From positions 6,380,001 to 6,444,000 of the forward strand of contig CP020563.1 of assembly GCA_002082585.1 (NCBI GenBank): a DNA stretch of 64,000 bases, in the 5' to 3' direction. The notes under the pieces were generated by a model. That model searched no databases. It was not told the origin of the DNA and was given only the letters and a program-made list of their open reading frames with translations. Both the position numbers and the translations under genes were made by a program. Positions 44,285 through 49,201 of this stretch are shown here, one piece after another. The first letter of the stretch is position 1, and every line of letters starts with the position of its first letter. The stretch is from Kitasatospora albolonga (lineage in GTDB: Bacteria; Actinomycetota; Actinomycetes; Streptomycetales; Streptomycetaceae).

Positions 44285-46456
44285 TCACCCCTGAACCGCG
44301 AGGACCAGCGGACACACCCCCTGAGCTCCGGCCCGCCGCAGCAGCCGCGCGGCGACGGCCAGCGTCCAGCCGGTGTCGGACAGGTCGTCCACGAGCAGGA
44401 CCGGCCCGTCGGCCGACCTCAGCGCCTCCGCCAGCTCCGGCCCGACGGCCAGGGCCTCGTGCAGGGCCCGCACCCGCTGTGCGCTGTTGGTCTGCGACAT
44501 CGTCAGATTCTCGGTCCCCGGCGCGTAGTTCACCGTCCCGAGCAGGGGCATCCGGCCGATCTCGGCGATGCGGTGGCCGAGCGACTGGACCAGCTGCGGC
44601 CTGCGGCGCGAGGCGACCGTGACCACACCCACCGGCCGGGCAGCGGCGTCCGGCGCGCCGGACGCCCAGCCGCCGGGGCCCCTGGCCCAGTCCGTGAGCA
44701 CGGTGACCACGGCGTCCGTGACATCGTCCGGAACCGGTGCGTCCGGTGCCTGCGCCGCCAGCATGGGGCGCAGCCGGTTCCCCCAGCCGATGTCGGAGAG
44801 GCGGCCCAGCGCCCGGCCGGTGGAGGAGAGTTCACCGGCCGGGATGCGCCCCTTGAGGTCGACGCCCACCGCGGACAGGCCGGTGGGCCACATCTTGCGG
44901 GGTGCCACCTCCACTCCCGGGCGGCCCAGCTCGCTGCGGGCGCCGTCCAGGGCCGCGGTGGAGACCTTGTCGTCGAAGCGGGCGCCCGCGCAGTTGTCGC
45001 AGCGTCCGCAGGCGGTGGCCTCCTCGTCGTCGAGCCGCAGCCGGAGGAACTCCATCCGGCACCCCGTCGTGGTGGCGTAGTCCCGCATGGCCTGCTGCTC
45101 GGCGGACCGCTGCCGGGCGACCCAGGCGTAACGCTCGGAGTCGTAGACCCAGGGCTCCCCGGTGGAGATCCAGCCGCCCTTGACCCGCTTCACCGCGCCG
45201 TCGACGTCCAGCACCTTGAGCATGGTCTCCAGCCGGGTCCGCCGCAGATCGACCAGGGGCTCCAGCGCGGGCAGGGAGAGCGGCCGCTCCGCGCGGGCCA
45301 GGACATCCAGGGTGCGGCGCACCTGCTCCTCGGGCGGGAAGGCGACCGAGGCGAAGTACTGCCAGATCGCCTCGTCCTCCTTGCCGGGGAGCAGCAGCAC
45401 CTCGGCGTGCTCGACCCCGCGCCCCGCACGCCCGACCTGCTGGTAGTACGCGATGGGGGAGGAGGGCGAGCCCAGGTGCACGACGAAGCCGAGGTCGGGC
45501 TTGTCGAAGCCCATGCCCAGCGCGGAGGTGGCGACCAGGGCCTTGACCCGGTTGGCCAGCAGGTCGTCCTCCGCCTGCTGGCGCTCCGCGTTCTCGGTCC
45601 GCCCGGTGTAGGACGCGACGGGATGGCCGTTCTGGCGGAGGTAGGCCGTGACCTCCTCGGCTGCCGCGACCGTCAGCGTGTAGATGATCCCGGAGCCGGG
45701 AAGCTCCCCCAGGTGGTCGCCCAGCCAGGCCAGCCGGTGCGCCGCGTTGGGGAGTTGCAGCACGCCGAGGCTCAGGCTCTCCCGGTCCAGCGGACCGCGC
45801 AGGACCAGGGCGTCCGTGCCCGCGCCCGTGCCGAGCTGTTCCGCGACGTCCGCCGTCACGCGGGCGTTCGCCGTGGCGGTGGTGGCCAGCACCGGCACTC
45901 CGGCGGGGAGATCGGCGAGCATGGTCCGCAGCCGCCGGTAGTCCGGCCGGAAGTCGTGCCCCCAGTCGGAGATGCAGTGCGCCTCGTCGACCACCAGAAG
46001 CCCGGTCGCGGCGGCGAGCCTGGGCAGCACCTGGTCCCGGAAGTCGGGATTGTTCAGCCGCTCGGGGGATACCAGCAGGACGTCGACCTCACCGGCCGCC
46101 ACCTCGTTCTGGACGCTCTCCCACTCCTCCGTGTTGGACGAGTTGATCGTGCGGGCGCTGATCCCCGCCCGCGCCGCCGCCGCGACCTGGTTGCGCATGA
46201 GCGCCAGCAGCGGCGAGACGATCACGGTCGGGCCGCTGCCCCGCGCGCGCAGCAGCGAGGTCGCCACGAAGTAGACGGCGGACTTGCCCCAGCCGGTGCG
46301 CTGCACGACCAGCGCCCGGCGTCTGTCGGCGACGAGCGCCTCGATCGCCACCCACTGGTCCTCGCGCAGCCGGGCCTCACCCGTGGCGTCCCCGACGAGG
46401 CGGGCGAGGACGGAGTCGGCCGAAGCCCTGAGTGCTGCACGATCTGCGTTGGTCAT
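44285..46456 (-). CDS. recQ: RecQ helicase fused to a phosphoribosyltransferase-like domain
   Basis: 723 residues. Superfamily 2 3'-5' DNA helicase: Walker [15 protein letters not shown] (about 50-63), DEAH box [30 protein letters not shown], then the zinc-binding cysteines CRMEF and ACGRCDNC. There is no evident HRDC domain; instead residues about 570-723 end in [21 protein letters not shown], the PRPP-binding loop of type I phosphoribosyltransferases. ATG 46456 is favoured: TTGCAT ends 6 bp upstream, as in leaderless genes; a GTG at 46483 would add 9 residues. Confidence 0.9.
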
Positions 46457-46505
46457 CCCCCCATGCAACCCGATGACGGCCACAAACCGCGAACGGCGGG
46501 GCGAG

Positions 46506-46529
46506 CCTGTGGATAACGTTATCCACAGG
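46506..46529. promoter_or_regulatory. 24-bp perfect palindrome made of two DnaA boxes
   Basis: CCTGTGGATAAC followed by its exact reverse complement. Each half contains the canonical DnaA box TTATCCACA; the boxes face away from a central CG. It sits between the divergent starts of recQ (46456) and the DUF4192 gene (46567). Confidence 0.8.
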
Positions 46530-46566
46530 GGTCGCGGGATCGGGCGGATCGCGGGACCGTCGAGCC

Positions 46567-47967
46567 ATGAACAAGCACCACGAATCCACCGGCCCGGCCG
46601 AAGGTCAGCAGATCACCCTGCGCGGTCCCGCCGAACTCGCCGATGCCCTCCCGTATCTGATGGGTTTCCACCCCGACGACAGCGTCGTCATGGTGGCCCT
46701 GCACGGCGGTCGCGGCCGGTTCGGCGGTCGGCTCCGCCTCGGCATTCCGCAGGCGCCCGGCGAATGGGGCCCGGTCGCCGAGCAGTTGGCGGCGAGCCTG
46801 ATCTCGGGGAGCGAGCGGCGCGAGGGACGGCCCGACGCGATCGTGATCTTCCTCTGCCAGGACTCGCCGGACGGCGCGAGCGCCCGTCTGACCATGGAGC
46901 GGCTGCGGCCGTTCGCCCAGAGCCTGCGTACGGCGTGCGGAGCGCTCGATGTGCCCGTGCTCGAAGCGCTCTGCATCTCGGACGGCCGCTACTGGTCCTA
47001 CTGCTGCCCCGACAGCCGGTGCTGCCCGGCCCAGGGAAATCCCCTGGCCCTGCCCGGTACGACGGTGATGGCGGCGGCCGCCGCCTACGCGGGAATCCAG
47101 GTACGGGGGACGCTGCGCGACATGGAGGCGCGGCTCGCTCCCTGGCAGGCGCCGGACGCGGCCTTCGCACAGCTGCAGGCGCTGGGCCGGGCGGAGCCGT
47201 CGTTGGTGCCCCGCATTCTCGACGAGCGGACGAAGACCGAAGTGGCCGGGGAGACTCTTGAGCTCGCCCGCACCCTCATGGGCCGCCTCGGGCGCGCCCG
47301 GTCCGCTCCGGAGGCCGTCTCCGACTTCGAGGACGACCAGTCGATCGGCGACGACGAGGCCGCCGCCCTGATTCTGGGCCTCCAGGACCGGGAGACCCGT
47401 GACAAGGCAGCGGCCTGGATGGAAGGCCCCGGCGCACAGTCCGCGCTGAGGCTGTGGCGCGCGCTCGCCCGCCGCTGTGTCGGACCGTACGGGGAGCACG
47501 CCGCCGCCCCGCTGACCCTGGCGGGCTGGGTCTCCTGGTCCACCGGCGACGAGCCCGGCGCCCGGGTCGCCCTGACGATGGCGCTCCGCGCCGACCCGGA
47601 GTACACGTTCGCGCAGTTGCTGCACCGGGCGTGCAACGAAGGGCTGGACCCGGAGACGCTGCGCCGTTGCCTGCGCGGTGAAGGGGAGACGGCGGACGCT
47701 CGGGTGGAAGCGGACGCCGACGCGGCGGGCACGGGCGCCGGGACCGCCGGTGCGGCCGGGACCGCCGCGGAGGCCACGGCCGCCAGGGGGCCCGCCCTTC
47801 ACGTCCGCAGGGTCCGGCCGCTGCCCCATCGGGAACGGCGGGGGACCGGCCGCCGGGCGACGGACACCGGACGGAGGCCACCGACACCCGGCACCACCCG
47901 GCCGGGGACGGGAGCCACAGCCAGGCGAACGCGCTACGGCCGACGGGACACTGGCTCCCACAGCTGA
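46567..47967 (+). CDS. DUF4192-domain protein
   Basis: 466 residues. The DUF4192 signature is clear at the start ([36 protein letters not shown]) and continues to about residue 370 ([32 protein letters not shown]). The last 80 residues are Arg/Gly/Ala/Thr-rich low complexity. Cytosolic; actinobacteria-specific; function unknown. Divergent from recQ with a 110-bp gap containing the DnaA-box palindrome. Confidence 0.85.
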
Positions 47968-48088
47968 AGACCGAGCCCCCCAGGCCACAGCTGACACCGG
48001 GACCGCCTGCCCACAGCTGACACCGAGACCGCCCGCCCACAGCTGAGACCGAGACCGCTCGGCCACAGTTGAGACCGGGACCGCTCGC
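47958..48088 (+). repeat. 26-bp tandem repeat starting at the DUF4192 stop codon
   Basis: Five copies of CCACAGCTGACACCGAGACC-type units start at 47958, 47985, 48011, 48037 and 48063. Each contains CACAG[C/T]TGA; the first TGA (47965) is the gene's stop, the rest cover all three frames. The remainder of the 478-bp gap (48089-48445) shows no gene. Confidence 0.8.
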
Positions 48089-48387
48089 CCCAGCAGCGAC
48101 TGGGCCTTTCCGTGGCGGGCCCGCGCCCCTGCGGGCCGACGGCACCCGCGCGGTGCCGGGCCCACCGCCACTCACGTACGCGCCCACGCCGGGGTGGCCT
48201 GTGCAGGGTGGGCCGCCGCCTTCTGCTGCGGGAGGGCGCCGGCACCCGGCGCCCTCCCGCACCCCGCACCCCGCACCCGGCCCCATGGCGCGTGCGGGTC
48301 CGTCGGGTGGTGCCCCGGCGTGGGTCGGCTGTCCGGTCGCTGTGGTCTGTTTCGTGTGGTCTGTTCCGGCCGTGGCGGGGATTTCTC

Positions 48388-48444
48388 TGATCACGGGAGC
48401 ACCGAAGGGAGTGTTTATCGTCAGGAAGACGACTATGATCACGG
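48388..48444 (+). promoter_or_regulatory. Candidate operator and leaderless promoter of the Nudix regulator
   Basis: TGATCACGG occurs at 48388-48396 and 48436-48444, 48 bp apart. Between them TCGTC-AGGAA-GACGA (about 48418-48432) is an inverted repeat. TATGAT (48434-48439) is a good -10 ending 6 bp before the ATG. Confidence 0.5.
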
Positions 48445-48445
48445 C

Positions 48446-49201
48446 ATGCCGCCCTACGACCCGTCGAACTTCCCGCCGTTCGCCGTCACCGTGGACCTGG
48501 TCGTGCTCACGGTGCGCCGTCACGCGCTCTGCGCGCTGGTCGTCCGCCGTGGAGAGACCCCGTTCCAGGGCCGGTGGGCGCTGCCCGGCGGTTTCGTCCG
48601 GGCCGACGAGGACCTCGGGTCCGCGGCAGCGCGTGAGCTTGTCGAGGAGACGGGGCTGTGCGCCCACGATCCGGCCAGACCGGCGGCGAACGGGGCGCAC
48701 CTCGAACAGCTGGCCACGTACGGGGACCCCGCCCGCGATCCCCGGATGCGGGTCGTCAGCGTCGCCCACCTCGCCCTCGCGCCGGATCTTCCGGCACCCC
48801 GTGCGGGCGGGGACGCCAACAGCGCGCGCTGGGCGCCCGTCGACGACCTGCTGCGCCCCGGCACCGGGCGGGAGGACGAGCAGGCGACGCCGCTCGCCTT
48901 CGACCATGCGCGGATTCTCGCCGACGGAGTGGAGCGCGCCCGCTCGAAGATCGAGTACTCCTCGCTGGCCACGGCGTTCTGCCCGCCCGAGTTCACGGTC
49001 GGGGAGCTGCGCCGGGTGTACGAGGCGGTGTGGGGCGTGGTCCTGGACCCCCGCAACTTCCACCGCAAGGTCACCGGCACGCCCGGATTCCTGGTGCCGT
49101 CCGGCGGGACGACCACACGGCAGGGCGGCCGCCCCGCGCAACTGTTCCGGGCCGGGGCCGCCACCGTGCTCAATCCGCCGATGCTGCGGCCCGAGGTCTG
49201 A
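48446..49201 (+). CDS. Nudix hydrolase-like regulator (NrtR type)
   Basis: 251 residues. The Nudix box is complete: GGFVRADEDLGSAAARELVE then ETGL fits GX5EX7REUXEEXGU. The C-terminal third (FTVGELRRVYEAVWGVVLDPRNFHRKV) is the winged helix of the NrtR family, in which the Nudix domain senses ADP-ribose-type ligands. Many NrtR regulators lose catalytic residues; this one keeps them, so it may hydrolyse its ligand. Leaderless -10 TATGAT. Target genes unknown; NAD metabolism genes are not adjacent. Confidence 0.88.
   Translation: MPPYDPSNFPPFAVTVDLVVLTVRRHALCALVVRRGETPFQGRWALPGGFVRADEDLGSAAARELVEETGLCAHDPARPAANGAHLEQLATYGDPARDPRMRVVSVAHLALAPDLPAPRAGGDANSARWAPVDDLLRPGTGREDEQATPLAFDHARILADGVERARSKIEYSSLATAFCPPEFTVGELRRVYEAVWGVVLDPRNFHRKVTGTPGFLVPSGGTTTRQGGRPAQLFRAGAATVLNPPMLRPEV

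Follow-up and report, generated by a model that had tools for sequence, protein, structure and literature searches.

What does a perfectly symmetrical DNA element do between two divergent genes? We asked this question of a 64,000-nucleotide (nt) stretch of Kitasatospora albolonga DNA (contig CP020563.1, positions 6,380,001 to 6,444,000; hereafter the window), in which a 24-base-pair (bp) perfect palindrome at 46506..46529 lies upstream of a gene for a DUF4192 protein. We found that one half of this palindrome is held at a fixed distance from the start codon of DUF4192 genes throughout most of the Streptomyces regions analyzed here. We propose that two DnaA boxes make up the palindrome and that DnaA bound there probably controls transcription of DUF4192. 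Knowledge of DnaA as a regulator of transcription comes mostly from a small number of model bacteria. The site is a putative non-origin DnaA target and may give an initial indication of what proteins of the widespread DUF4192 family do.

Two abutting boxes form the palindrome

The palindrome, CCTGTGGATAACGTTATCCACAGG, has no spacer between its two 12-bp arms, and its sequence and position are exactly as described in the sequence-only reading that drew attention to it. Each arm is one copy of GTTATCCACAGG, with the left-hand box on the minus strand (46506..46517, 9-mer at 46508-46516) and the right-hand box on the plus strand (46518..46529, 9-mer at 46519-46527). Joining two copies of this 12-mer directly in inverted orientation reproduces all 24 bp. 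It is the longest zero-spacer palindrome of the window (arm of 12; the runner-up has an arm of 11), and an arm of at least 12 appeared in 1 of 100 windows of the same length simulated with a first-order Markov model. Palindromy by itself is unusual, though not decisive.

Both arms contain the 9-mer TTATCCACA exactly. The description of the arms as two consensus DnaA boxes therefore stands with one refinement, since Table 1 of PMC4285127 gives TTATCCACA as the Escherichia coli form and TTGTCCACA as the high-affinity DnaA box of Streptomyces coelicolor; taking either 9-mer as a DnaA box, both arms carry one. The window has a guanine-plus-cytosine content of 72.1%, in agreement with the background of about 72 percent first noted, and it holds only these two 9-mers within one mismatch of TTATCCACA, with 1.37 expected. 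The number of such matches is unremarkable; their exactness and abutment are remarkable. Across the 8.03-Mb genome, TTATCCACA occurs 21 times (reversed control, 2) and TTGTCCACA 30 times (control, 12). Because a G precedes 17 of the 21 TTATCCACA sites and GG trails 16 of them, the usual form of the site in this genome is GTTATCCACAGG. The arrangement TGTGGA-N8-TCCACA is found once in the genome, and the wider TGTGGA-N2-22-TCCACA at 6 sites, as many as its reversed control.

A box at a fixed position before DUF4192 genes

The sequence-only reading had named conservation in other Streptomyces as a check on its proposal. Allowing up to three mismatches, the 20-bp core of the palindrome was found in 46 of 199 Streptomyces genomes, and the exact 20-mer in 22, with none for the reversed control in either search. 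Among 30 core-match loci that were fetched, 24 lie beside a DUF4192 gene and 6 elsewhere; the fetched loci with an exact core (14, from the 22 genomes that have one) all adjoin DUF4192. The exact 24-mer is present in 7 of 58 named Streptomyces loci.

A PF13830 search detected DUF4192 in 110 of 111 Streptomyces genomes. We analyzed 112 Streptomyces DUF4192 upstream regions, comprising 108 genomes plus two second copies from the genus-level PF13830 search and two from the class-level search, with genomes G032 and G081 left out as partial matches. A TCCACA box whose end lies 39-42 nt from a downstream ATG is present in 101 of the 112 regions, so the check came out in favor of conservation; in the window, the right-hand 9-mer ends 39 nt before the DUF4192 ATG. 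These positioned boxes are TTATCCACA in 100 cases and ATATCCACA in one, and GG follows the box in 100 of the 101. Among the 11 regions lacking a positioned box, five carry their boxes flipped (L044, L141, L150, L174 and L218), two carry TTATCCACAGG with no ATG found at 39-42 nt by the rule used (L172 and L212), and two are second copies with no match to the N-terminus of the query (L221 and L222).

Aligning 100 loci on the right box (one was dropped at a contig or stretch edge) gave 11 columns of 1.9-2.0 bits and 1.2 bits for the preceding base, and the remaining positions from -60 to +17 reached at most 0.8 bits. Within the 58 named loci, 51 have TT[AG]TCCACA in the 200 bp directly ahead of the match start, 4 have it in the 200 bp beyond, and none of 1810 other 200-bp windows contains it; a stricter rule, which required TTATCCACAGG at 34-46 nt from a downstream ATG and covered a limited stretch, was satisfied by 45. 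The right box is near-invariant in Streptomyces, occupies a fixed promoter position of orthologous genes and is the conserved element of the palindrome.

The left-hand box is its variable partner. A left arm with TGTGGA lies within 60 bp of the right box in 67 of the 100 Streptomyces loci, and the spacers between the 9-mers of these 67 fall at 1-3 (25 loci), 12-17 (12), 22-24 (12), 32-33 (10) and 40-47 bp (8). Their left arms include 25 copies of TTGTCCACA and 24 of TTATCCACA. Overall, inverted-box spacers span 1 to 59 bp; a search for YYNTCCACA within 110 nt left 35 of 101 loci with a single box. A genus-wide search for TGTGGAYAA-N0-30-TTATCCACAGG matched at least 133 of 392 Streptomyces genomes (control, 0); the matches listed include 23 distinct sequences, which need not all lie at DUF4192, with spacers of 1, 2, 3, 6, 9, 13, 14, 16, 17, 23, 24 and 25 bp. 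Since the central bases of the palindrome also differ among species, palindromy itself is not conserved, and the perfect palindrome is one compact arrangement of the box pair. This changing geometry offers a natural experiment on paired binding by actinomycete DnaA.

Related sites extend beyond Streptomyces. Of 148 genomes in the class, 121 contain PF13830, and upstream DNA was taken for 70 of these, mostly those with better-scoring matches; two with truncated contigs were then dropped, and the non-Streptomyces set comprises 57 loci from 41 genera and 19 families. In the region 15-200 bp before the domain start, 42 of the 57 loci have TCCACA on the coding strand, 8 have TGTGGA and 45 have either. 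TCCACA ranks 1 of 4096 hexamers upstream of these genes, with a genus-weighted value of 0.72, compared to a mean of 0.022 and a maximum of 0.188 over 59 composition-matched permutations and to 0.043 in the stretch 215-400 bp upstream. The commonest of the 62 non-Streptomyces boxes, TTGTCCACA (14), TCGTCCACA (12) and CCGTCCACA (10), are DnaA-box-like in sequence. Direct-copy pairs also occur outside Streptomyces, and 13 of 21 are spaced 29-30 bp, six of these 13 coming from one genus. Read by eye, four DUF4192 upstream regions (L031, L036, L103 and L117) have TCCCCA in place of TCCACA.

The palindrome was first suggested to let DnaA control both recQ and DUF4192. We found a recQ neighbor within about 1.5 kb at 8 of the 10 Streptomyces loci inspected and at none of 20 loci outside the genus; the upstream DNA showed a RecQ N-terminus in 85 of the 112 Streptomyces regions, many of which have a short upstream stretch. 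The ten neighboring proteins identified outside Streptomyces belong to differing families or to none clearly. Since a recQ neighbor was seen only in Streptomyces and neighbors differ elsewhere, the box travels with DUF4192. The conserved target is DUF4192, and this part of the suggestion is well supported by conservation; the recQ part is not, given the 0 of 20 neighbors and a distance that is fixed to the DUF4192 start, with a side effect on recQ possible in Streptomyces.

DnaA and other candidate readers of the box

We reasoned from these data toward a protein that can read the box alone or in pairs. Sites that occur alone, as inverted pairs with several spacings, as direct repeats and in flipped orientation fit an oligomerizing protein such as DnaA and do not fit a rigid dimer. 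PMC13270200 describes one dimer common to the DnaA domain I structures from ten Actinomycetes, which is head-to-head for one of them, and PMC8203912 reports that Streptomyces lividans DnaA autoregulates by direct promoter binding. The host dnaA gene encodes Bac_DnaA and the C-terminal DNA-binding domain Bac_DnaA_C and adjoins dnaN. Five YYNTCCACA boxes lie between the predicted dnaA and dnaN frames and a sixth at the start of the predicted dnaN frame, none of the six being TTATCCACA or TTGTCCACA; the dnaA open reading frame itself is preceded, at a distance of 145 bp, by a TTGTCCACAGG box. This cluster is near 3.973 Mb, about 2.45 Mb from the palindrome at 6.4265 Mb, and the palindrome thus lies apart from the box cluster beside dnaA and dnaN that would mark a replication origin.

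In the mechanism we propose, two DnaA boxes of the extended form GTTATCCACAGG abut in opposite orientation, and the perfect symmetry follows from the bases that each box favors on its flanks, a G on the 5' side and GG on the 3' side. The functional core would be the right box, whose center lies about 44 bp ahead of the DUF4192 start codon; through the left box a further DnaA protomer would join, probably so that binding is cooperative. Control of DUF4192 transcription by DnaA would then couple the gene to the replication state. Given a short leader, the box would lie near the expected -35 region, which makes repression somewhat likelier than activation. Together, the conservation of the right box in Streptomyces and the related actinomycete sites suggest that replication control reaches DUF4192.

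Similar boxes at other promoters bear on who reads them. In the host genome, boxes also precede genes for a MoxR ATPase, a comEA-like protein, an M48 peptidase, a YgjP/SprT-like peptidase and a CpaB/RcpC-like protein, as well as dnaB. We looked for TT[AG]TCCACA on both strands in an interval reaching from 200 bp ahead of the predicted start to 30 bp beyond it, and found it before 24 of 25 Streptomyces YgjP/SprT-like genes (bare TCCACA in 25 of 25; three loci have short flanks), 18 of 25 MoxR genes and 7 of 23 M48 genes. The low M48 count shows that conservation of such boxes is not universal and so lends meaning to their conservation at DUF4192.

The arrangement of the boxes favors DnaA; the main rival is another protein with similar specificity. 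Such an actinomycete DNA-binding protein, reading TCCACAG-type sites at the DUF4192, YgjP/SprT-like and MoxR promoters, would account for a box kept before unrelated genes, and the TCCCCA variants of some taxa are odd for a DnaA reader. We nevertheless consider it unlikely, as dnaA itself is preceded by the same extended site, the interval from dnaA to dnaN contains similar boxes, and 16 of the 21 TTATCCACA sites in the host genome continue with GG. The sequence-only reading had also raised a dedicated operator for a dimeric repressor, here extended to an activator, whose 12-bp half-site contains the DnaA 9-mer by chance. The perfect 24-bp symmetry, an 11-bp half-site that is extremely constant in Streptomyces and the recurrence of exact palindromes beside DUF4192 would all suit a dimer. 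The half-sites, however, do not keep a constant spacing in a conserved dyad: roughly one Streptomyces promoter in three lacks the second, which in the others stands at many spacings, the central bases vary, and other families use direct repeats. Furthermore, the half-site recurs ahead of unrelated genes, and the adjacent Nudix/NrtR-like regulator gene has no such box. With spacing and orientation varying so widely across species, we regard a dimeric operator as quite unlikely.

A site that only titrates or stores DnaA, with no role in transcription, is very unlikely in our estimate. Paired exact boxes so far from the dnaA-dnaN region would be in keeping with titration, and clusters of DnaA boxes outside oriC in Streptomyces have been described as titrating DnaA. 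The element studied here is, like those clusters, a set of non-origin DnaA boxes, yet it is a promoter element of one or two boxes. The fixed 39-42 nt to the start codon, the many loci with a single box and the prevalence of one orientation relative to the gene (42 against 8 of the 57 loci) speak against a pure titration role, which had been offered as an alternative to regulation. A functionless chance palindrome is exceedingly improbable: an arm of this length does arise in an occasional simulated window, but the box is conserved in Streptomyces and enriched across 41 other genera.

Several observations weigh against DnaA as the reader of a DUF4192 promoter. The right box in Streptomyces is TTATCCACA, which differs at position 3 from TTGTCCACA, and this could reflect a different reader or a tuned affinity. 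Two Streptomyces regions (L127 and L220) have no box in the upstream DNA examined, and outside Streptomyces, coding-strand TCCACA is missing in 15 of the 57 loci, and 12 lack the hexamer on both strands. A simple scan of 46400-46650 recognized no E. coli-type sigma-70 promoter. Helical phasing of the box spacers is a mere hint: at 10.5 bp, one of five periods tried, p is 0.0009 on 18 distinct values, but related genomes are not independent and p changes to 0.12 when adjacent values are merged. At other periods, p is 0.0039 (10 bp), 0.0070 (11 bp) and about 0.1 (9.5 and 11.5 bp).

By its sequence, the site is a putative, deeply conserved new example of a known element type, the DnaA-type promoter box. 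The 12-mer GTTATCCACAGG is also present inside E. coli K-12 oriC, identical over 12 bp, but the palindrome has two boxes only, at a promoter far from dnaA, and is not an origin. DnaA-autoregulated dnaA promoters, including that of S. lividans as described in PMC8203912, likewise have one or a few DnaA boxes upstream of a gene; here the target is an uncharacterized gene and the spacing from box to start is fixed. The E. coli loci datA and DARS, as outlined in PMC4585315, share the placement of DnaA boxes away from oriC, but the 64-kb window contains two boxes within one mismatch of TTATCCACA in place of a cluster, and their position is tied to one start codon. A broader scheme, which we consider doubtful, would make DUF4192 a core actinomycete partner in replication control, with a class-wide box that sets its expression, a protein that feeds back on replication or repair, and an undescribed DnaA regulon shared with the YgjP/SprT-like and MoxR genes.

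Genes of the locus and additional observations

The palindrome lies, as first described, in a 110-bp divergent gap (46457..46566, assuming an ATG start for both genes). The DUF4192 gene, the putative regulatory target, occupies 46567..47967 on the plus strand and encodes 466 amino acids (PF13830, Pfam E 8.9e-87); the closest named relatives of the protein are Streptomyces proteins, and modeling suggests an alpha/beta domain with a RadC-like match and a helical, TPR-like part. The divergent gene (44285..46456, minus strand) carries Pfam DEAD and Helicase_C domains. Its start was taken as the ATG at 46456-46454; the longest open reading frame begins at 46483 with GTG. The product scores 227.2 bits against TIGR00614 (RecQ_fam subfamily; cut-off, 219.8) and under the cut-off for TIGR01389 (RecQ equivalog), so the gene named recQ in the sequence-only reading is better described as a RecQ-family helicase gene. 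We found no intrinsic terminator in 46400-46650.

A 22-bp perfect palindrome, GGCGTCCGGCGCGCCGGACGCC, lies within the helicase gene at 44645-44666. A 26-bp unit with CCCACAGCTGA in its consensus is repeated in tandem (5.3 copies) at 47957-48094, overlapping the end of the DUF4192 gene and continuing downstream. Further downstream, at 48194-49201, is the gene for a regulator with Nudix and NrtR-like winged-helix domains, which scores under the NtrR equivalog cut-off.

At the YgjP/SprT-like loci (L282-L306), a GTT[AG]TCCACAGG-type box is found in 24 of 25, with the copy of the host genome (L072) at 1506, and by eye a TTAGTC.TTCAAAT-like stretch comes after the box in many. At the MoxR loci (L332-L356), the box often stands, by eye, immediately 5' of a conserved GGCGAGTGACACGAA, and the copy of the host genome (L061) is at 1510. 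DnaA-type boxes also precede the comEA-like gene (L062, 1562) and the CpaB/RcpC-like pilus gene (L076, 1491-1517).
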